This document shows positions 25,977 through 37,548 of a stretch of DNA of 37,548 bases, in pieces. Source of the stretch: Pseudomonadota bacterium (lineage in GTDB: Bacteria; Desulfobacterota; Desulfobulbia; Desulfobulbales; Desulfocapsaceae). Position 1 is the first letter of the stretch, and every line of letters begins with the position of its first letter. The DNA lies in NCBI GenBank assembly GCA_018820855.1, contig JAHJNL010000047.1:1-37548 (forward strand), in the 5' to 3' direction. A program made the translations under genes and the position numbers. The notes below the pieces were generated by a model that made no database searches, was not told the origin of the DNA, and saw only the letters and a list, made by a program, of their open reading frames with translations.

Positions 25977-28900
25977 CTACAGTTTGAATCCACTTACCAT
26001 ATTTCTCAGTTTTTCCGCAATGCTGGAGAGTTCTGCAGCGCTGCTTTGGACCTCACCGCTTGAGGTTGCCATCTCGCTGGAGGATTGACTGACCATGCTG
26101 ATATCCTGGGCAATCTGAGCTGATACCGCGGAACTCTGGGCCACGTTCTCATTTACTTCGGCTAGGCCCTGAGCTGCCTGGGCAACGTTATTCGCTATCT
26201 CGTCGGTAGCGGCAGTCTGTTCATTTACTGCACTGGTGATAGTGTTGACAGTATCATTGACGTTATTGATGACATCCGTAATCCGTTTGATCTGTGCTAC
26301 CGTGGCTTCGGTTGAACTCTGAATACCCTCTATCCGGGATTTGATCTGACCGGTTGCCTCTGCGGTCTGTTTAGCCAGTTCCTTGATCTCGTTAGCTACC
26401 ACAGCAAAACCCTTACCTGCCTCTCCGGCACGGGCGGCCTCGATGGTAGCGTTAAGGGCGAGCAGGTTGGTCTGACCGGAGATATCGGTGATCACCTCGG
26501 TTACCTTACTGATTTCGCTGGCTGCAAGACCAAGTTCCTGGACCTTGATTGTGGCACTTTTCGCCTCTTCAACTGCTTCAGCGGTCACCTTACTTGCCTG
26601 TATTGTATTGTTGTTGACATCGGCAATGGTGGCGGTCATTTCTTCTGCAGCTGAAGCCACAATATTCATATTAGTGGTTGTCTGTTCAGTGGCTGCGGCA
26701 ACGGAGTCCATATTAACACTCATCTCTTCGGCCGCAGTGGCCACAGAGTTTGACTGATCGGAGACGTTAGCGGCGCTACCGGACATTTGTTCGGCAATGG
26801 CTGACAGCTCAGTGGTAGCTGATGATATGGTTACCACTCCCTGCACTACCTCTTTGAACATCTGCTGCAGTTTGAAAATAAAGCCGTTGAAATTTGTTGA
26901 GAGCTCCTGCAGCTCATCGTAGTTGGACTGTTTGTAAACTTTGCAGTTTTCGCAGTTGCTGACCTTGCCGCTTGTTACATCGATGCAGTCAGGATTCTCT
27001 GCCATGGTGCCGCTTATTTCCCAGCACATCCCTTTTTTACCGTAACTCTTACATGATGGTGTATTGCACTTTTTTACCTTGGAGCAGACCGGACAATCCA
27101 CCTTCAGACGCTGGGTCAGATCGCTTTCCCCCTGGGCAAGCTCTCGCAGATTAGCAACCACCACTTTGATCGGGGCCATAATAAGTCGCAGCATGAAGAA
27201 TGCAACGGGGATAATAATAAGACTGCTGACAAGGGTAATCAGATTCATCAGCTTGTGCATAGCCATTACCGGGGCCAGCGCTTCATGTTTGTCGATTTTA
27301 GCAATCAGGCCCCAGGTTAGATCACCGACCTTGACAGGGCTGTAAGCCGCCAATATCGCGTCACCGTTATAATCATTGGCAAACTTACTGCCTGAGTTGC
27401 CTGCCAAGGCCTCATTGCTGACATCGGTATTATCTTTTCCTTTCTCTGGATTGGCAAATGAGCCTTTGACGGTGTGGGATGCGTCTTCCATAGAGTCAGA
27501 CCGCATTAAATTGTCAGGACCAACCAGATAACTTTCACCGGTTTCTCCCATGCCCTCACGCTGCTGCATGATGGAGTTTATGGCATCTGAGGATAGCTGC
27601 AAGGCAACCACCATCTCAACGTTACCCTCATGAATAAGGGGTTGAGCGATAAAAGCGGCGGGATCATTGTTGCTGGGGGCATAGGGCGCAAAGTCGGCAA
27701 TTCCGTAAGACTTGCTTTTTATGACTTCGCGAAAGAGCTTACCCATGTTGGAGTCGGAGTATTTACCGTTTTGGAAATTTGTCTGGTAGTCTGCTTTTTT
27801 TGTTGTTGTATAAAAGCAGTAGCCGTCAGGTTCCATCAGGAAGAGGTCGGCGTAACCATAGGCCTCGATGTACTTTGCATAGTATTCATTTCCTTCATTA
27901 TCAATAGGGCTGAATGCCTCGGCAATATCAATCTCGGCAAGAATTGCCCAGGTAAGATCAAGAATCTTAAAGGGAGCCGCCACGACAAGGACTGGATTAT
28001 CATTATAACCAATTGTTATATCTGCTTTATCTTCACCGGCAAGTGCCCATCTGACGGCCTCGGTGTCCACTTTACCCTTGGCCGGATTAGCAAAAGAACT
28101 TTTCACGCTGCGGTTAACAGAATCGAGGTAGGAGTCTGAGCGCATCAGTTTGTCAGGTCCGACCAGATAGGTCTCGCCAGTTTTGCCAAGCCCCGCCCTG
28201 ATTTCCATGATATTATTGATCTTATCGCTGGAGAGCCGCACGACCATAACCCCCCGCAAGGTCTCTCCTGTGTACATCGGAACGCCCACAAAAGCAGTAG
28301 GGACATTATTATTTGGTGCATAGGGCTCAAAATCAACGATTGAAACGTCCCTGCTGTGAACTGTTTTTCCCCATATTTTACCCAGGCCTGTGTCCTTATA
28401 AGGACCGGTGCGTATATTTGTTCCGAGGTCTACCTCTTTGGCTGCGCTGTACATCACATGTCCGTGAGTTGCACAGATCATTAAGATATCAGAATAGTCG
28501 GCATCTTTCTGGAACTGAGTGACGTTATGACCAAACTCCTGCCAGAGTTGCTTGTATTCAGGGGTTGTAACGTCATATGGCCCATCAGCTGTGACAAATG
28601 TATCTTTATGGTATTTGACAAGATTGTCATAAAGATTCACTGCATCCAGGCTGCGTGCGAACATCTCCATGTCGAGTAATGCTTTTTCAAAGTAATCCTT
28701 GAGCATTAACGTTTTCAGGTCATGTTGTGCCTCAAGCTTTCGAAAGGCCTCTGCTTGCAGAGTATTGACGGTTTCCATCAGGACGTTCAGATCGTTTTTG
28801 CGCTGATCGAAAAAGCCCTCGATCTGCTTTTTTTTGATCTCACGAACACTGGTCAACTGGTGAAAACTCAATTTGGTCAAGGAAGTGTTGGTGCTTTTGG

Positions 28901-29000
28901 AGCAGATGTATCCGCTGATAATCAGTGGCACGATGCCGATTACCAAAAAAGTAGTGATCAGTTTGACTCCGATCCTTTTGAAAAATTGAATAAATTTCAT
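25977..29000 (-). CDS. Methyl-accepting chemotaxis protein with duplicated sensor and cysteine-rich insert
   Basis: The 1007-residue receptor has membrane segments at 14-32 and about 586-605. The periplasmic region is very large and contains two similar halves (about 169-363 and 383-575), each with D(F)xPYAPxNNxP, [16 protein letters not shown] and [16 protein letters not shown] followed by MRSDS; these are Cache-type sensors. A HAMP-like linker follows, then an insert with eight cysteines (636, 639, 645, 650, 659, 672, 683, 686) including CW at 659-660. The signalling hairpin tip is [19 protein letters not shown]. No CheR-binding pentapeptide is present at the C-terminus. It follows a small gene by 42 bases and probably shares its sigma-54 promoter. 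The ligand is unknown. Confidence 0.92.
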
Positions 29001-29041: not shown

Positions 29042-29422
29042 TCATGGTTGAACAAGCGAACGACTTCGTATTCTGGTGATTACTTTTTCAAGATCTGCAA
29101 TGTCGTGATCTATAAAGGTGATGAAACGCGGTTTGAGCATGTGGCTAACTGCAACGACTTCAGTATCCAGATTTGGCAGAACCAGAATGACCCGAAATTG
29201 GTCAAACTTATCGTGTATTGCGAGCAGATTTTTAAATTCCTTATCCGTTGCTGCAAAGAGAATCATCACATCACCACTGCGCAGTTTCAGGCTATGATGG
29301 CTGTTAAGCTGAGATCCTTCCGGAATAACTGCTATGGATGACAGGCTGTTCCTGGCAAAAAGTTGTCTTCTGAATTGATCTGCTGCCGCAGATTCAGTAT
29401 CTGCATAAAAAAAAACATTCAT
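29042..29422 (-). CDS. Small receiver-like protein of unknown function
   Basis: The 126-residue cytoplasmic protein starts at ATG 29422 with a strong CAGGAG 11 bases upstream. The alternation MNVFFYAD, DVMILFAAT, VILVLPN, PRFITFID looks like the strand pattern of a receiver or Rossmann-like fold, but there is no DD pair or clear phosphoacceptor, so it would be a pseudo-receiver. That is a fold-level guess. It has no cysteine and no membrane segment. The gene lies between a sigma-54 promoter and the chemoreceptor gene and is the first gene of that transcript, so a role in the same signalling pathway is likely. Confidence 0.65.
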   Translation of the reverse strand: MNVFFYADTESAAADQFRRQLFARNSLSSIAVIPEGSQLNSHHSLKLRSGDVMILFAATDKEFKNLLAIHDKFDQFRVILVLPNLDTEVVAVSHMLKPRFITFIDHDIADLEKVITRIRSRSLVQP

Positions 29423-29473
29423 GACAGGAGTCTCCTGAGATCTTTTAAAAGAACGGTTTGTTTACTGTCACAA

Positions 29474-29489
29474 AGCAAACAGTATGCCA
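29474..29489 (-). promoter_or_regulatory. Sigma-54 promoter for the receiver-like gene and chemoreceptor
   Basis: On the minus strand the sequence reads TGGCATACTGTTTGCT. This fits TGGCAC-N5-TTGCW with one mismatch, with correct spacing of the -24 GG and -12 GC. Transcription would start near 29463, 40 bases before the ATG at 29422. The gene upstream on the same strand encodes an NtrC-type activator, which such a promoter needs. Confidence 0.8.
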
Positions 29490-29509
29490 ACCTGGCTGAA
29501 AAGAAAAGT

Positions 29510-29542
29510 GTTAACATTCTAACGTAAAATCAAAATGTTAAC
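29510..29542. promoter_or_regulatory. Palindrome, candidate activator-binding site
   Basis: GTTAACATT (29510-29518) and AATGTTAAC (29534-29542) are perfect inverted halves. They lie 20-70 bases upstream of the sigma-54 -24 element, close for an NtrC-family enhancer but possible. It is the only strong palindrome between the promoter and the end of the activator gene apart from 29589-29617. Confidence 0.5.
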
Positions 29543-29588
29543 TGGACTTGTGAGGTGAGAGGATTTGTGTTGGGAGGATGGTTCTGTT

Positions 29589-29617
29589 TACAAGATTAGA
29601 CAGCGTCTAGTCTTGTA
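29589..29617. repeat. Inverted repeat downstream of the NtrC-type gene
   Basis: TACAAGATTAGAC (29589-29601) pairs with GTCTAGTCTTGTA (29605-29617), 13-bp arms with one T.G pair and a 3-base loop. It follows the stop of the NtrC-type regulator by 26 bases on the minus strand, so it may be that gene's terminator, though the T run is missing. It also lies about 100 bases upstream of the sigma-54 promoter, a typical enhancer distance, so it could be a second activator site. Confidence 0.5.
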
Positions 29618-29642
29618 GACAGGAGGTGAAGAGCATGTGCTG

Positions 29643-31043
29643 TTAATCAGTCGGGGGGGATAATTGAGAAGAGGGAGAATCGTGCTTGTCGAGTAACTGA
29701 TAGATACGGGCCCTGGATAGACCTGATATTTGGCAGGCTTTTTGGATATTATGACCGCTGAGCTGCATCAGGTTTTCCCAATAGTGGAGTTCAGTCTGAT
29801 TTTTATATTCTTTCCATGATGGGAGGGAACAACCAAACAGCTTATTGTTCTTTCCTCCTTGCTGTATGGTTGCCCGGGCAAGGCTGACACGCAGTTGTTG
29901 AGGAAGATGGACACTGAACAGGGTCGGGATACCGATGGTTTCGGCAAAGATCTGTTCCACGGTCTGGTATAACTCTCTGACATTGCCTGGCCAGTCGTGG
30001 TTCATCAGGGCCTCAATAAGATCAGGACCAATCCCTTTGGTTTGCTGGTCATATCGTTCACACAGTTTGCCGAGAAAATAGGTGACCAGTTCCCGGATAT
30101 CTTCCAGTCTCTCTCTAAGTGGCGGCAGTCTGATGGTCATGGCCTGGAGTCGGAACAGTAAGTCGCTGCGAAAGGTACCGTCTGCAACCATTTGTTTCAG
30201 GTTACGATTAGTCGCGGCGACCAAACGAAAGTTGGAATTGATCTCATTGGCACCGCCAACGGGACGGAACTTTCGTTCCTGTAATACCCTTAAGAAAGTT
30301 TTTTGTATTGCCGGCGGCAGTTCGCCAACCTCGTCAAGAAACAGGGTACCCTTATGGGCGTGTTGAATCAGCCCTTCCTGTGTTCTGTCTGCTCCGGTGA
30401 ATGCTCCTTTGACGTGGCCAAACAATGTACTTTCAATCAGGGTGTCCGGCAGTGACGCACAGTCTACCACCACAAACCGATTAGAGGATCTGTCACTGTT
30501 TTCATGCAGAGCCTGGGCGAAAAGCTCCTTGCCTGTGCCGGTATCGCCAGTTAACAGGATACTCACGTCACTGGCAGCAGCACTGGCGAGTTGGTCCAGA
30601 CAACTGCACAAGGTACTGGAATTGCCAATGATGGCTTGTCGTTTCAGGGCCACCGGTATAGATTTGAAGCGCTGTTTTTCTTCGCGGAATTGCAGAGCCC
30701 TGGTTAAATGCAGGGGCAGGTCACGGATGACATGCGGCTTTTCGATATAACTCCATGCACCGCCAACAATGGCTTTTTCCGCACCATCAGCCGCACCGTG
30801 TCCGGTGATAATGATGACCTCCGGGTGTAATGGAGCCCCAATGAAGTCCGGGATAAATTCAAGTCCGTTGCCATCCGGCATCTGTACGTCGAGCAGGATT
30901 ACGTCCCAGCCACCTTCACTTGCCAGAGAGAGCCCCTGCCGTAGGGTATTGGCTGAGTCGGTTTCGTATCCCTTGCGCTGTAACTGCTCAATCAGCATGG
31001 TGCAGAGAACTCTATCATCGTCAACAATAAGGATTCGTGCCAT
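29643..31043 (-). CDS. NtrC-family sigma-54-dependent response regulator
   Basis: The 466-residue protein starts at ATG 31043 (AAGGGGA upstream); a longer frame to 31109 adds residues without similarity. The receiver domain (1-120) has phosphoacceptor Asp52 in VILLDVQMPDGNG. The AAA+ domain has Walker A LLTGDTGTGKELFAQ, the sigma-54 contact loop GAFTGA and Walker B GTLFLDEVGELPP. The C-terminus is a Fis-type HTH, HNIQKACQISGLSRARIYQLL. It should activate sigma-54 RNA polymerase when phosphorylated. The kinase gene lies upstream on the same strand, and a sigma-54 promoter lies just downstream, before the receiver-like and chemoreceptor genes. That is the most obvious target. Confidence 0.93.
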   Translation of the reverse strand: MARILIVDDDRVLCTMLIEQLQRKGYETDSANTLRQGLSLASEGGWDVILLDVQMPDGNGLEFIPDFIGAPLHPEVIIITGHGAADGAEKAIVGGAWSYIEKPHVIRDLPLHLTRALQFREEKQRFKSIPVALKRQAIIGNSSTLCSCLDQLASAAASDVSILLTGDTGTGKELFAQALHENSDRSSNRFVVVDCASLPDTLIESTLFGHVKGAFTGADRTQEGLIQHAHKGTLFLDEVGELPPAIQKTFLRVLQERKFRPVGGANEINSNFRLVAATNRNLKQMVADGTFRSDLLFRLQAMTIRLPPLRERLEDIRELVTYFLGKLCERYDQQTKGIGPDLIEALMNHDWPGNVRELYQTVEQIFAETIGIPTLFSVHLPQQLRVSLARATIQQGGKNNKLFGCSLPSWKEYKNQTELHYWENLMQLSGHNIQKACQISGLSRARIYQLLDKHDSPSSQLSPPTD

Positions 31044-31298
31044 TACCGGATCCCCTTTTATAGTTATAGCAATGGACACCTGTTGAGGTGGGATGATGTT
31101 GCCGGTCAACCTTGCTCAGAAATATTTTGTGTGTGTTCATAGGCTTTGCTGATAGATAGTGTTTGTACCATTTGTTTATAAATAGAGTCAGAGATCCAGT
31201 TAATATAAAATATCATTGTTAGGGGCATATTACAATTTGGTTAGGATTATATTTTTCTGCAGGTCGAATAGTCACATGTCAGGTAGTTGTATTTACGG

Positions 31299-34200
31299 TT
31301 AGGATTGAGGGTGTGAATTTGTCCCTGTGGATGTTATTGAGTGTTCGCTGGAATCAAGTACCGTCCGAATAGTTTTTGCCAGTGTTGTCTGTTTGATCGG
31401 CTTATTGAGAAACGCTCGTATGCCATATTCACGGGTCTTCTCTTCATCAATTAGTTCTGAATATCCTGTGCAGAGAATGATTGGCATGTCAGAACGCTGG
31501 GCCAGAATATGTTCTGTCAGTTCTTTGCCGTCCATATCCGGCATGGTCATGTCGGTCAGCATCAGATCGTATTGGAGCGGGTCCTCTCGAAAAGATGCCA
31601 GCGCTTCAATGCTGCTGGAAAAAGTGGAAACCTGATAGCCCAGACTGGTAAGCACCCTTTGGCGTATGATAAGCATATGTTGCTCATCATCGACAACCAG
31701 AATGTGCTCATTCCCTCGGGGCATTGTCTCGTCTTTTAGTGGCAATACAGACTCGTTTTCCTTTGTCACTGGTAAGAAGACAGTAAAGGTGGTTCCCCTC
31801 TGCAGCTCACTGTCCACTGTGATATGGCCATGGTGACTCTTGACAATACCGTGGACAACCGCCAGCCCTAAGCCAGTTCCTTCACCTACGCTTTTGGTGG
31901 TGAAGAAAGGATCAAAAATCCGTATCAGATTGTCTTTTGCAATACCACTACCTGTATCGCTTATTGTAAGTTTGACATGTGTGTCAGGGCTCAGGTTGGC
32001 GGGCATGACCTGCTCGCTGTCAGCAAAATTCTCTTTGGCTAACGTAATGGTGAGGGTTCCGCCTTTGCTAAGCATGGACTGTTTTGCATTAGTACAAAGA
32101 TTCATCAGAATTTGATGGATCTGGGCCGGATCAGCAAAAACCGACGGGCAGTCTGGCTCGATTTCCGCTTTAAGGACAATGGAAGACGGCAGTGTTGCCC
32201 GCAGCATTTTAACCGCCTCCCTGATCAGAAACTCTAACTGGACCGGAACAAAGCCCTCTTTTTGGCGGCGGCTGAAAAGGAGAATTTGTTGAACAAGACT
32301 GGCAGCCCGGTCCCCGGATTGAATCACTTTTTCAAGATCCAGATAGGGCTGGCTCTCAGCGGGGAGACCATCCATAGCCATCCTGGTGTAACCGAGGATG
32401 GCTCCGAGAATGTTGTTGAAATCGTGGGCAATACCGCCTGCGAGGGTACCAATCGCTTCCATTTTAACGGCCTGACGAAGTTGTTGCTCCAACTCGAGTT
32501 CTCTGGAGATGTCGTGCTTGACCGCCACAAAGTTTATGATGCGTCCTGTATCATCCTTGACAGGCGTTATGGTCGTTTCCTCGGTAAAAAAATCTCCGCT
32601 TTTCTTTTTGTTGACAAATCTGCCGTGCCAGACCTTGCCACTACTGATAGTGAGCCAAAGGTCCTGATAGAATGCCGGAGAATGTTCGCCGCTCTTCAGG
32701 AGTTTTGAACTCTGTCCCACTGCCTCTTGTCTGGTATAACCAGTCAGTTTTTCAAAGGCCGGGTTGACATACTGGATTGTTCCGTTTTCATCGGTTATCA
32801 TGATCACATCCACTGCCTGATCGATGGCAGTGGCCAGTCTCCTGTTGCTCTCTTCTGCCAGGACCCTTTCCGTTATATCCTGTACTGTTCCCAGTGAATT
32901 GACCGGTTCACCATTGTTATTGTATGTTGCGATCCAGCGTTCCTGGACAAATTTGATCGTCCCGTCAGCCAGTAACAGCCGGTGGGTGATTTCATCATCT
33001 GTTGTTTTATTCGTTATGGCTGCAGTGAAGGCTTGCTTGACGAATTCACGGTCGTCTGGGTGAACCTGCTGGAGTAATGCTTGAACACTTGGTTTGAACT
33101 GTTTGGCATCTTGTGAAAAAATTCGATATACTTCATCGGACCATGATAGGGCACCGGTGGCAAAATGATGTTCCCAGTGTCCGATCTTGGCCATTTTTTC
33201 GGCCTCTTTCAGGCTGGCCTCACTTTTCACCAGTTCAACAACTGTCTCGAAACGAAGATTTTCACTGTATTGGGCATGGAGCCTGGCATTAAGAATAGGA
33301 GCAAGGTAAGAGCAGATGGATTCCAGCAGGGTGGTATCGGCATCTGTGTAATCTTCATCCTTGTTGGCAATGCAGATAATACCGATTACTTCTTCCTGGT
33401 AGCGGATGGGCACGGCCAGTCCATTCTGCAAAGCTATGTGGCCGACAGGAACGGTTAAGGCGCTGTTTTTCATCATTGTTTTACCGTCTTTGAGCGTCTG
33501 TCCCCAGAGACTATCCCAGTTTTCAGGCGGAAAAATGATATTTAGGTCCTGCATATTATACAGTTTCCGGTACTCACCGGACAAAGTCGGGCAGATCAGT
33601 TTCCCCTGCTCATTGAGATAACAGAAAAAACCGAAACTGCTTCGCAGAGCCTTCAGGATAATCTGCAGGACCCTCTGATACACAGTGTCATCACCTGTTG
33701 TCAGAAACTGTGTGATAATCCGATTCTGCAGGGTGAGTTCTCCCTTGGATTGTTCCAGTTTTTCCTGGAGCTGTTTTTTCTCAGTGACGTCGTCGTAGAC
33801 TGCTACTACTTCGCCGGAATCCAGACGAAATAGATAGTTTTCTCGACAGCTTTCCAGATACTTATCCCGGTAACGGGAAATCGGTAAATACTCAGGTTTG
33901 CCGGTGGAGTGTACCCGTTGCATGACATTAAGCAGGTTGGACTCTCTGATTCCCGGAAAAATTTCCGTTACCCTGTGCCCTATCAGTTTCCGCCGATTTA
34001 CCTGGTCGATTTGTTCACCACTGCAGTTGATGTCGATAAAAACAAAATCTCGCCCATGGTCAACGGGGCGATACACGGCCCCTCCTTTATGCATATTGTC
34101 AAAGAGCGAATGATAGCGTATTTCATTTTGACTGAGCAGTTGAATGTTGCGATAAAGATGGGCACTGAGCCGATATACAAGGAAAAAAATAAGGGCAGCT

Positions 34201-34370
34201 GTCAGGCAGAGGAACAAAGTGTTTTGCGGGCTGAATAGATGACCGATGTCCCATTCAGCCATTGTCGGGTTGAAGAAACGGAGAAGTGCCAGGCCGGTTC
34301 CGGCAGCGAAAAAATAGATGAGGACAACGCGCAGGGCTGCTTTGGCAGCATTTTTGTCGAGGACTTTCAT
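31299..34370 (-). CDS. Multi-PAS/GAF hybrid sensor histidine kinase
   Basis: The 1023-residue protein has two N-terminal membrane segments (about 12-32 and 50-68) with a very short outside loop. A PAS domain (about 82-200), a GAF domain (about 225-370), a PAS (about 390-505, with PAC) and another PAS (about 512-625) follow, so sensing is mainly cytoplasmic. HisKA has His649 in GGIAHDFNNILGAILG; the HATPase has DTGSGI (805-810) and GTGLGLAVVHG. A C-terminal receiver has phosphoacceptor Asp940 in LMLTDMTMPDMDG. The AHDFNN box is typical of kinases feeding into receiver-only or NtrC-type regulators. The gene lies 255 bases upstream of the NtrC-type gene on the same strand; they are the likely pair. 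Confidence 0.92.
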   Translation of the reverse strand: MKVLDKNAAKAALRVVLIYFFAAGTGLALLRFFNPTMAEWDIGHLFSPQNTLFLCLTAALIFFLVYRLSAHLYRNIQLLSQNEIRYHSLFDNMHKGGAVYRPVDHGRDFVFIDINCSGEQIDQVNRRKLIGHRVTEIFPGIRESNLLNVMQRVHSTGKPEYLPISRYRDKYLESCRENYLFRLDSGEVVAVYDDVTEKKQLQEKLEQSKGELTLQNRIITQFLTTGDDTVYQRVLQIILKALRSSFGFFCYLNEQGKLICPTLSGEYRKLYNMQDLNIIFPPENWDSLWGQTLKDGKTMMKNSALTVPVGHIALQNGLAVPIRYQEEVIGIICIANKDEDYTDADTTLLESICSYLAPILNARLHAQYSENLRFETVVELVKSEASLKEAEKMAKIGHWEHHFATGALSWSDEVYRIFSQDAKQFKPSVQALLQQVHPDDREFVKQAFTAAITNKTTDDEITHRLLLADGTIKFVQERWIATYNNNGEPVNSLGTVQDITERVLAEESNRRLATAIDQAVDVIMITDENGTIQYVNPAFEKLTGYTRQEAVGQSSKLLKSGEHSPAFYQDLWLTISSGKVWHGRFVNKKKSGDFFTEETTITPVKDDTGRIINFVAVKHDISRELELEQQLRQAVKMEAIGTLAGGIAHDFNNILGAILGYTRMAMDGLPAESQPYLDLEKVIQSGDRAASLVQQILLFSRRQKEGFVPVQLEFLIREAVKMLRATLPSSIVLKAEIEPDCPSVFADPAQIHQILMNLCTNAKQSMLSKGGTLTITLAKENFADSEQVMPANLSPDTHVKLTISDTGSGIAKDNLIRIFDPFFTTKSVGEGTGLGLAVVHGIVKSHHGHITVDSELQRGTTFTVFLPVTKENESVLPLKDETMPRGNEHILVVDDEQHMLIIRQRVLTSLGYQVSTFSSSIEALASFREDPLQYDLMLTDMTMPDMDGKELTEHILAQRSDMPIILCTGYSELIDEEKTREYGIRAFLNKPIKQTTLAKTIRTVLDSSEHSITSTGTNSHPQS

Positions 34371-34714
34371 ACTCTGTTCAGGATATTGACAAAGGTGTTG
34401 AAATTTAAAAAAAAGAATAACAAAACAACAGTTAGTTCAGTGGGAACGCTCTGTTGTCAATGGCACATCTGACAAGGAGAGTTTAATAAAATAAAGATCC
34501 ATCTGTGTGTTAACACTATCAAGCTCATCGTATGAAAACAAATTAAAAAGTAATCTACTTATTAATAATTCTCAGATGGTGAGGGGAAAGCTCAATATGG
34601 GTATGTGTAAAAATGACATTAACCGGGAAAGGTGGTAACAGAAATCCTAAAAACAATCAAAGAAAGCCTCCTGCGCAGGGTATACGAGGCAGGGAGAGAC
34701 ATGTCGTTTCCCGT
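34371..34714. other. Intergenic region between kinase and GNAT gene
   Basis: The kinase promoter should lie here on the minus strand; a weak AT-rich stretch is seen but no confident boxes. Near 34620-34715 lies the 3' side of the tandem-GNAT gene, without a clear terminator. No gene was recognised. Confidence 0.4.
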
Positions 34715-35611
34715 TCACAGTGTTTTTGTACATTTATAGAGGCTGAAGGTTTCTTCCAGATAAGGAATCATCCGTTTTCTGGCAAAGGCGATCATGCCGC
34801 TAAACTGGGCAGGGATGAGGAAGCTTGCATCGGTGGCAACAAAGCTTTCCGGGCTGGCCATGTGGGTTTTGATGGCCTCGATGAGAAGGGGAGCGGTGAA
34901 TCCATACTGCTGCAGGTCTTCCCGCACGAAAGAAGTGGTGTAGCGGATGGTTTTTTTTGAGATGCGGTGAGTAATAACCCAACCGGCAATCTCACCGCGG
35001 TAACGCAGGCCGAGGCTGTTGAGATATTCAATCTCTGTTTCGTTGCTGAAGGGGGAGAGAATTTCCGGATACCAGGGGGTTTGTCTCTGTCTGTCCCTGA
35101 TGAATGTTTTTTCTGCCTGGGGCAGATCCTTCCATAAAAAGACTTCACAGGAAGGGGGGAGGAGGGATTTCTTGAGAAAGGGGGCATTGAGGATCCTGCC
35201 CCGGTCACGGCTTTTACACACCAGTCCACTGAATTCGGGAGGAGAATAGGCTTTGGCTCTGAGTAGATTGGCTATGGCAGCACTCTCAGGTTCCTGGTCC
35301 TGGTAGAGGATAATGAACTTTTGGCATCCCCGATGTTTGGCTTCTTTTTCAGCCATGTTCAGAAGTGCTCCTGCCACTCCCTGTCGTCTGTGCTGAGGAA
35401 GGACAAAGAGGGATTTCAGTTCGGCAATTTCAGGAGAAATCTGTTCGCTCAGGGCGAGTCCTACCGGTGTCTTGTCAATGCGGGCGCCTGTGGAATAGAA
35501 GGCATGACGGTTGGCCTCCTCATGCTTGACCAGGTGTTTGTACCTGTCAAAGGTGAGTCCTGTAAACTCCAGGCCCTCTTCGGCGCATAGGGTGGTGACA
35601 TCAAGGGCCAT
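34715..35611 (-). CDS. GNAT acetyltransferase, probably tandem
   Basis: The 298-residue protein contains one clear GNAT domain: a beta-4 strand IAELKSLFVLPQ followed by the acetyl-CoA loop HRRQGVAGALL (residues 74-84). The second half (about 170-298) has the length and strand pattern of a diverged GNAT domain (LRYRGEIAGWVITHR) but lacks a clear acetyl-CoA loop. Tandem GNATs of this sort often modify small molecules or peptides. Its start overlaps the end of the preceding kinase-like gene by 11 bases, so they are translated together. With the NHLM-type transporter next door, a role in modifying an exported peptide, or self-protection, is possible but unproven. Confidence 0.75.
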   Translation of the reverse strand: MALDVTTLCAEEGLEFTGLTFDRYKHLVKHEEANRHAFYSTGARIDKTPVGLALSEQISPEIAELKSLFVLPQHRRQGVAGALLNMAEKEAKHRGCQKFIILYQDQEPESAAIANLLRAKAYSPPEFSGLVCKSRDRGRILNAPFLKKSLLPPSCEVFLWKDLPQAEKTFIRDRQRQTPWYPEILSPFSNETEIEYLNSLGLRYRGEIAGWVITHRISKKTIRYTTSFVREDLQQYGFTAPLLIEAIKTHMASPESFVATDASFLIPAQFSGMIAFARKRMIPYLEETFSLYKCTKTL

Positions 35612-36158
35612 GACCGAATTCTCTGCTGAGGCGGGTAAAGGCTGTCGGCTGATGCCCGTTATTGAGGTGTTTTATAATCAGGTCCGCACATTGGCAAGGG
35701 GAGAGTTGTTCTGTATCCAGATGCAGGTCGTAGAGCATATCTTCATGGACAGCGGAGATCTGTTCTGCTGAGAGAATTTTCTTTCGTCTTTTTCTTCCGG
35801 CATTACGTTCATGGAGTGCTTGCAGAGAACAGCTCAGGCCAACAAGGTATGTGGGAACAGAGGAAAAATGGTGAAGAATCGGCACCTTCATTGCGTCATT
35901 GACAAGGACTATATCCAGCAGTGCCCGGTTGCCTGCTGCGGCAAAGGTTGCTGCTGAGGCAATAAAACCCTGGTAGATGGCAGGCAAGCAGGCACGCTGC
36001 AAAGCGTTCATGGGACGTTGCGTCAGTCCCTCGTAAAAACGGTCCATGGAGATATGGACATAGGGAAAGTGCAGCTGCTCTGTCAGCTGCCGGCAGAGGG
36101 TGGTCTTGCCGGATCCTGATGGTCCGTTCACCAGAATGATTTGACCGACTCTTTCCAT
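35601..36158 (-). CDS. Chloramphenicol-phosphotransferase-like P-loop kinase
   Basis: The 185-residue protein has a Walker A GPSGSGKT (12-19), a switch-like VHISMDRFYEGL and the pattern VGLSCSLQALHERNAGRKRRK, which matches the CPT-like family. These transfer phosphate to hydroxyls of small molecules; chloramphenicol is only one known substrate, so resistance is not implied. I start at ATG 36158, seven bases after the transporter stop (36163), because the longer frame (36194) overlaps that gene. It sits between the NHLM-type transporter and the tandem GNAT in one operon. Confidence 0.8.
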   Translation of the reverse strand: MERVGQIILVNGPSGSGKTTLCRQLTEQLHFPYVHISMDRFYEGLTQRPMNALQRACLPAIYQGFIASAATFAAAGNRALLDIVLVNDAMKVPILHHFSSVPTYLVGLSCSLQALHERNAGRKRRKKILSAEQISAVHEDMLYDLHLDTEQLSPCQCADLIIKHLNNGHQPTAFTRLSREFGHGP

Positions 36159-36162
36159 GTGA

Positions 36163-37548
36163 TTACACCAATTGCCTTTTGGCCAGGGCTGCAAAAAGCC
36201 CTTCCTGCTGCATCAGTTCCTGGTAACTGCCTTTCTGTTCCACAGTCCCTCGGTTGATGACATAGATGGTGTCCGCGTTTTTAATGGTGCTGAGGCGATG
36301 GGCTATCACCAGCCTGGTGATGTGCATCTCGTTCATGGATGTGGAAACAATCTGCTGGGTCTGATTGTCGAGGGCGGAAGTCGCCTCATCAAAGAACATG
36401 ATTCGCGGTTTCATGGCAAAGGAACGGGCAATGAGCAGTCGTTGTCGCTGACCGCCGGAGAGGTTGGTGCCGCCCTCGGAGACATAGGTGTGCATTCCCA
36501 TGGGCATGCTTCTGATATCCTGTTCAAAGCCGGCCTGTCTGGCAGCTATCCAGGCCTCATCAATGCTGAGCTGAGAGGAGCCGACTATGTTGACAAAGAT
36601 ATCTCCGGCAATCACTCTCCCTCCCTGAAGAACCGTCCCTATCTGTTGACGCACGGCCTGGACATCGATATTCTGCAGATTCTGACTGGAATAGAAGATG
36701 ACGCCTTTTTCAGGTTTTTCAAATCCCAGAAGGAGTCGAAGCAGAGTGGATTTGCCGGATCCGGAGGGACCGACAATGGCAACAAATTCTCCGGGTTTCA
36801 CAGTCAGGCTGAAATTTTGCAGAATAAGGGGACTGTTCTCACTGTAGCGGAAAGTGACGTTGTTGACCTCGATATTGCCGTCAAGTACTCCCGGATGTAC
36901 ATGATCCTTACTGATTTCCGGTTGATTGAGAAGAATGGGACGGGCTCGTTCATAGAGCGGGATGACACGCAGGACAGTAACCAGTGTAGAGCCAAGACCG
37001 AGGATGGCGCCCATGAATGAACCGTAAGCAGTAACAAAGGCGATAAAAGAACCGGTGCTGAGGCTTTCCTTAAGGTAAAAAGAGGCTACGAGATAGATAA
37101 TGCCGATGGCTATGATCGGGTAAATGCTGTGGAAAGTGGAGAAGATGTTGGAGACCATACCCACCTTGTAGGCGGCCTGCTTTTCCTTTGCAAAAGCCTT
37201 TCCCCAGACAGAAAATGCGCGGTGCTCGGCCCCTGCCACCCGTAGCTTGGCAAGTCCGGTGAGAAACTGGAGGACAATGCCTGAAATCCGTCCCTTGATA
37301 TTGAGGAGTTCCCGTCCGTATTTGATGTCAAAGTAGCCGGAACATACGGTAACAAGAAAGGGCGGTATGGTTGTCAGGACGGCGACAAAGGCCAGTTTGA
37401 CGCTGTAGTAAAAGAGGACAATGAGGTAGAAAACAGAAAAGAAACCGGTGAGAAGGGAGCTGAGCCCTGCTCCGGTGAGGTGTTGGCGGATGGTGGTGAT
37501 GGCATTGACCCTGGAGGCGAGATCACCCACGGTGTATTGACGAAAAAA
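36163..37548 (-). CDS. NHLM-type bacteriocin-export ABC transporter, C-terminal part
   Basis: The frame is open at the right window edge, so the N-terminus is missing. The visible 461 residues start with [17 protein letters not shown], a hallmark of ABC transporters of the NHLM (nitrile hydratase leader microcin) bacteriocin system, followed by a type-I exporter membrane domain with several hydrophobic segments ([38 protein letters not shown]). The ATPase domain has Walker [11 protein letters not shown], signature LSGGQRQRL, Walker [14 protein letters not shown] and switch IAHRLST. It would export a leader-peptide natural product. The partner transporter, peptidase fusion and precursor should lie to the right. 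A CPT-like kinase and GNAT follow in the same direction. Confidence 0.85.

Follow-up and report, generated by a model that had tools for sequence, protein, structure and literature searches.

A predicted sigma-54 circuit dedicated to a pseudo-receiver and one chemoreceptor in a Desulfocapsaceae genome

We analyzed a stretch of 37,548 nucleotides (the window), contig 24 (JAHJNL010000047.1) of the 4.8-Mb assembly GCA_018820855.1 from a member of the Desulfocapsaceae, and found that it probably encodes a dedicated circuit of kinase, activator and sigma-54 promoter that serves a pseudo-receiver and one chemoreceptor; more tentatively, the pseudo-receiver may be an adaptor in the chemosensory arrays. 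On the minus strand the gene order is a hybrid histidine kinase (1023 aa, 31299..34370), an enhancer-binding protein with receiver and AAA+ domains, a GAFTGA motif and a C-terminal HTH-like block (29643..31109), an intergenic region with a predicted sigma-54 promoter (29474..29489), a gene for a 126-aa protein (29042..29422) and a chemoreceptor (methyl-accepting chemotaxis protein, MCP; 1007 aa, 25977..29000), which starts 41 bp behind the small gene. The original prediction of a kinase, an NtrC-type regulator, a sigma-54 promoter, a receiver-like protein and a chemoreceptor in one direction was thus recovered complete and in its stated order; the interval given for it, 29042-34370, holds the kinase to the small gene, and the chemoreceptor (29000-25977) lies outside.

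The candidate -24/-12 promoter TGGCATACTGTTTGCT at 29489-29474 reached 21.5 of 22 on a hand-set sigma-54 score, a value found in none of 200 mononucleotide shuffles of the upstream region. The surroundings of 81 copies of the small gene were inspected, with a separate set of 40 copies from genomes first met in the search of the class; as these loci were sampled via the small gene, they cannot show that every such promoter has a small gene behind it. A sigma-54-like site of score 18.5 or more lay within 160 bp upstream of 53 of 80 small-gene copies versus 22 of 452 other genes in the same stretches, and a score of at least 21 was found at 17/80 versus 1/452. The further genomes agreed with this (32 of 40 copies versus 7 of 229 controls). 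Moreover, the GGC and TGC of the -24/-12 elements were invariant in an alignment of six related promoters. Sigma-70-type sites were not in excess in a general promoter scan (8 found versus 7.3 expected). A hairpin, CAGGAGACTCCTG, at 29425-29437 of the window could affect translation of the small gene, whose likely ribosome-binding site it overlaps.

The predicted enhancer (upstream activating sequence, UAS) is a 39-bp dyad at 29584..29622, TGTCTACAAGACTAGAC-N3-GTCTAATCTTGTAAACA with flanking C/G, whose center lies 114 bp upstream of the -24/-12 site. At 102-125 bp upstream, dyads of a similar kind lie in the loci L014, L015, L016, L017, L021, L023, L027, L077, and L082 (L-numbers are locus labels, and coordinates after a colon are those within the locus). 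A dyad at p <=0.05 (40 shuffles each) was present in 28 of 63 upstream regions, its sequence not always being of the window type. A half-site matrix built from six loci, one training row of which held a padded base that was not real, was tested on 39 loci outside the training set, and half-sites of at least 13 bits were found at 17 of the 27 copies that adjoin an activator, at 6 of the 12 that do not, and at 13 of 281 control genes. In the 4.8-Mb assembly the window dyad occurs a single time, and with one mismatch allowed its half-sites were found as the two of the dyad and at two single places, versus five places for the reversed control pattern. This uniqueness is the strongest argument for a switch with a single target promoter, and the counts lend no support to a regulator serving many promoters. 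We consider the predicted wiring, in which the small gene and the receptor are under the control of the regulator and sigma-54, strongly supported by sequence comparison: the dyad and its counterparts in relatives, the conserved -24/-12 elements and the half-site pair unique in the genome all point the same way, as the original prediction about receptor expression had it.

Only one of the palindromes noted upstream in that prediction kept its place. The dyad is unique in the genome and has counterparts in relatives, while a second inverted repeat, GTTAACATT-N15-AATGTTAAC at 29510..29542 (chance expectation in the window 0.02), was unseen in five aligned relatives, and outside the window its pattern occurred at one place with 3 mismatches, equal to the reversed-pattern control. 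Therefore, we rejected this repeat as the main activator site, and its meaning is uncertain. We also dropped the idea of one site common to both circuits of the genome, since neither of the two small-gene promoters on contig C13 has the window dyad. These two promoters have in common repeats of the type TGTCTGA(T/A)AAAT(C/T)AGAC, TGTCTGATAAATCAGAC-like, as seen by eye and without statistics, and the different repeat suggests insulation between the two circuits. In the second circuit (L013:6628-14510), one activator from the subfamily of the window activator is found with two tandem pairs of small gene and MCP.

The 126-aa protein is a member of an unnamed family, and its gene comes first in the predicted sigma-54 transcript. 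The window protein matched no Pfam family at a meaningful score, no NCBIfam family and not PF00072; over 77 members, Pfam gave no family in more than two members, and PF00072 was not among the 25 listed of 27 families. A PDB sequence search with the profile returned nothing below E 0.5. An AlphaFold2 model from seven sequences (mean pLDDT 75.4, pTM 0.75) showed the CheY-like order of beta and alpha elements, and the predicted fold of the small protein is accordingly CheY-like. Its top fold match was the TadZ atypical receiver (4lda; Foldseek E 1.2e-3; Z 11.5, rmsd 2.4 over 111 residues, identity 14%), and many other receivers were among the matches. TadZ/CpaE proteins join a receiver-like domain without the usual phosphorylation site to a ParA-like ATPase domain. 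The small protein resembles them in its best structural match and in a CheY-like fold without that site, but it has only 126 aa, and neither a second domain nor a ParA-like ATPase was found in it.

At the active-site positions, assigned by eye from the model, the residues of receivers are essentially absent in the 77 members (D/E in 0-3% at positions 7, 8, and 57, K in 0% at 103, T/S in 6% at 83). The family has instead a signature of its own, H-x-L-x-P-R-F/Y, with P98 in 74/77, R99 in 69/77 and H94 in 58/77. Given the CheY-like predicted fold and the missing phosphorylation residues, the protein is most likely a pseudo-receiver, rather than a response regulator open to phosphorylation, so that the earlier description as receiver-like is right for the predicted fold and fails for the usual phosphorylation residues.

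The small protein was present in 17 of 56 genomes searched (its own included, with three copies). A 15-row profile detected it in 52 of 395 genomes and 42 of 245 genera of the phylum, and a 77-row profile in 55 of 192 genomes and 25 of 62 genera of the class. The named relatives are bins of Desulfocapsa sp. and of Desulfobulbaceae, together with an isolate, Desulfogranum mediterraneum DSM 13871, which is a cultured carrier. The activator, or its HTH fragment, was among the three nearest same-strand upstream genes of 50/73 copies away from contig ends. In the further genomes an activator of the same subfamily stood upstream of 27 of 38 copies, and a kinase was within the three nearest same-strand upstream genes of 19 of 40. 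Downstream, a chemosensory gene (MCP, CheW or CheA) was found in the next four genes of 39/77 copies with room for them and of 24/38 copies in the further genomes; a CheW domain was detected in 14 of 49 next genes that had no MCP label. The weak copies L102, L112, L119, and L121 are located beside unrelated genes. Judged from gene order and predicted sites, the unit of activator, enhancer, sigma-54 promoter and pseudo-receiver is found in many related genera, with interchangeable, often chemosensory genes behind it. The original prediction treated the receptor as the output; in other genera it is the small gene that recurs behind this kind of promoter, and the gene that follows is variable.

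In one relative (L122:6495-7493), a single open frame encodes both the small domain and a CheW domain; it comes after a hybrid kinase and an activator and is followed by an MCP. This one example suggests that the small protein works at the chemosensory array. CheV is CheW plus a receiver in one protein. The fusion in L122 is like it in uniting the two kinds of domain, with the domain order reversed and without the phosphorylation site, and the window protein has no CheW domain. Elsewhere among the loci, the CheA-like proteins L020:1238-3145 and L024:5498-7396 combine stretches for dimerization, ATPase and CheW, and Pfam detected no Hpt in either; a further one (L013:2460-4385) is known from a kinase-like match and CheW hits only. 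A published account (PMC10542144) cautions that what looks like a triple CheW may prove to be two plus an insertion, and that an Hpt that seems to be missing may be encoded by a gene of its own.

By Pfam, the kinase has PAS, GAF, PAS_3, PAS, HisKA and HATPase_c domains and a C-terminal receiver, in this order; two membrane helices were seen by eye at its N-terminus. The kinase may sense an intracellular signal, as first proposed. The regulator starts at TTG 31109 or, likelier, ATG 31043. Its receiver scored 76 bits with PF00072 (Response_reg) and has the DD, D, T, and K residues by eye; its AAA+ part scored 218.7 bits with PF00158 (Sigma54_activat, cut-off 20.2), with an AAA lid and GAFTGA in the translation. 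The Fis-type HTH scored 12.7 bits with PF02954, under the cut-off of 22, and a C-terminal HTH-like block was conserved in an alignment of 19 activators. As an orthologue of NtrC (NR(I)) it fell short, with 323.1 bits for TIGR01818 versus a cut-off of 558.6, and it was under the NCBIfam cut-off for each of the 25 best-scoring families listed. Only 2 of 38 parsed activators of the window genome belong to its subfamily (570 and 316 bits in the AAA region, the rest <=233), only those two match the C-terminal region of the window activator, and a small gene follows both. C-terminal matches to the subfamily (E <=1e-8) were present in 137/395 genomes.

The chemoreceptor scored 109.2 bits with PF00015 (cut-off 34.6) and 54.6 with dCache_1 (cut-off 45); its HAMP domain scored 17.7 bits with PF00672, under the cut-off of 25. 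Pfam gave two dCache repeats in tandem, and the full-length AlphaFold model, which is unreliable (pLDDT <50) for the cysteine module and most of the cytoplasmic part, agrees. Between HAMP and the signaling helices of the MCP domain are eight cysteines (residues 636-689, 26934-27095 on the minus strand), C-x2-C-x5-C-x4-C-x8-C-W-E and three more, all kept in 7/7 receptors of the window type examined. The nearest named family, two_CW (NF045718), gave 16.2 bits, under its cut-off of 35, and this module possibly binds a metal or a redox group. Another MCP of the genome (L182) matches the same region. The genome encodes 16 MCPs over the cut-off, three of which come after a small gene; for another (contig C43, L187:2027-4198), a top-scoring sigma-54-like site, TGGCATGTTATTTGCT, is located 277 bp upstream. 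RpoN, flagellin and CheW-domain genes are encoded elsewhere in the assembly. The system is therefore self-contained, as it was first called, in having kinase, activator, promoter and targets together, and not in RpoN and the CheW-domain proteins.

Further, we propose that the hybrid kinase would phosphorylate the receiver of the adjacent activator, as their neighborhood suggests, and that the activator would bind the 29584-29622 dyad and open sigma-54 RNA polymerase at 29489-29474, a predicted step with strong comparative support. Strand and spacing indicate that one transcript would carry the pseudo-receiver and the large dCache chemoreceptor, and placement of the receptor in arrays would follow from its family, so that the signal of the kinase would decide whether this receptor joins the chemosensory arrays of the cell. 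For the pseudo-receiver we tentatively favor a role that does not depend on phosphorylation, in docking or as an adaptor, at the receptor/CheW array that the same promoter would supply. More broadly, the 126-aa family might be a new class of CheY-shaped, phosphorylation-independent array protein, produced only when a dedicated switch fires, which links a condition-specific receptor, or a CheA/CheW cluster in relatives, to the arrays or adjusts its tuning there, as part of a widespread plug-in regulatory cassette of these anaerobes; we regard this as conceivable and somewhat doubtful.

Several observations weigh against the circuit and adaptor reading. The model of the small protein is of medium confidence, with five models spanning pLDDT 75 to 44; a few non-receiver doubly wound folds are less than 1 Z from the top match (the N-terminal part of AdiA has 11.0), and at position 59, which directly follows strand 3, 27/77 members have Asp. 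No recognized chemosensory gene was present in the next four genes of 38/77 small genes, and no activator was nearby for 23/73. One copy, in G009 (L022), is split across two frames, and the CheW fusion of L122 is a single case on a 10-kb contig. A significant dyad was absent from the last 300 bp upstream in the near relatives L013 (both copies), L022, L026, and L064; half-sites were found further upstream in L022 and L064 and none in L026. The pairing of kinase and activator we infer solely from adjacency. Moreover, the activator subfamily is broader than the module: the small gene lies within 2.5 kb of 33/97 of its strongest members, the genes behind others include, going by eye on their first residues, one of HTH type, one of Hsp20-like type and perhaps one for an acyltransferase, and the L211 activator precedes a gene with an MCP-like beginning (also by eye), with no small gene detected. 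The varied genes behind these activators indicate that this activator type is a general local switch, of which the pseudo-receiver/chemosensory cassette is one frequent use.

The most serious alternative is feedback: acting as an anti-activator or a decoy, the pseudo-receiver would dock on the activator or kinase and hold sigma-54 transcription in check, with the receptor as one of many outputs. The upstream activator is indeed a steadier neighbor of the small gene than the downstream chemosensory genes (50/73 versus 39/77, and 27/38 versus 24/38 in the further genomes), and a protein with a receiver-like fold might imitate the receiver of the activator itself. However, behind 64/97 of the strongest subfamily activators no small gene was detected, chemosensory genes often follow the small gene, with one natural CheW fusion (L122), and 8/73 copies away from contig ends have a chemosensory gene and no adjacent activator. 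We consider the feedback role unlikely, yet worth keeping in view.

Ordinary sigma-54 control of a chemoreceptor by a neighboring NtrC-type system, with the small open reading frame (ORF) as an irrelevant minor leader gene, is improbable. It has precedents, namely predicted sigma-54 sites before che and mcp operons in Geobacter (PMC2577667) and MCP control linked to RpoN in Borrelia (PMC11723614), and the arrangement at L211 fits it as well. However, the small protein occurs in 42/245 genera sampled, with P98 and R99 of its signature kept in nearly all members and diverse genes behind it, and this spread, conservation and diversity suggest selection on the protein. The reverse flow of information, in which the kinase or activator takes its signal from arrays that contain the window receptor, similar to the alternative-function chemosensory system Myxococcus Che3/CrdA, is equally improbable: CheA-like and CheW or CheY-like genes come directly behind the kinase-activator pair in L024 and L101, but the window locus has no CheA and its activator adjoins its own hybrid kinase, and no sign in the sequences of contact between CheA and the activator was met, though none was looked for.

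The reading as a dedicated circuit for pseudo-receiver and receptor can be compared with known systems. AtoSC, ZraSR, and NtrBC are NtrC-type two-component systems with sigma-54 promoters. The window is like them in its histidine kinase, its activator of REC-AAA+ type with GAFTGA, a dyad about 100 bp upstream of -24/-12 and a target beside the regulator; unlike them, its target is a pseudo-receiver plus a chemoreceptor, and no such target is described for D. vulgaris in the parts of the two sources at hand (PMC4641369, PMC3333781). In the D. vulgaris sigma-54 regulome (PMC4641369), two chemotaxis operons are included, and chemotaxis is among the functions of promoters without a predicted enhancer. 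Downstream of DVU0653, a table gives an ncRNA and a legend a missing gene annotation (PMC4641369/PMC3333781). Geobacter is alike in having sigma-54 sites ahead of chemotaxis genes and differs in that the available part of its account (PMC2577667) describes no dedicated activator, enhancer or pseudo-receiver. Searches of openly licensed full texts, from which subscription journals are largely absent, turned up no description of the cassette or the family, and among the titles and openings of abstracts listed none named the family or a dedicated chemoreceptor activator in these bacteria. The circuit type is ordinary, its dedicated output is unusual, and the conserved protein is uncharacterized. 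Chemoreceptor content is usually treated together with flagellar regulation. Here, one receptor (in some relatives, a chemosensory cluster) appears to own a sensor-activator-enhancer-promoter cassette, which is repeated across many genera. The signature, the predicted enhancer sequence and the cultured carrier Desulfogranum mediterraneum DSM 13871 open binding, RpoN dependence and contact with CheW or MCP to direct tests.

The remaining features concern the surroundings of these genes. The gap between kinase and regulator is 189-255 nt, and the two genes may form two transcripts in the window; in some relatives, e.g. L015, their mechanically called ORFs overlap. Beyond the chemoreceptor, a ThiC-family gene lies convergent on the plus strand. 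Upstream of the histidine kinase are a chloramphenicol-phosphotransferase-like kinase (PF07931) and a GNAT acetyltransferase, their ends overlapping (34715-36194). Between these and the histidine kinase, GTGTTAACAC at 34503-34520 is similar to one arm of the 29510-29542 repeat, a resemblance in sequence that makes a link between the kinase-upstream and small-gene promoters possible.

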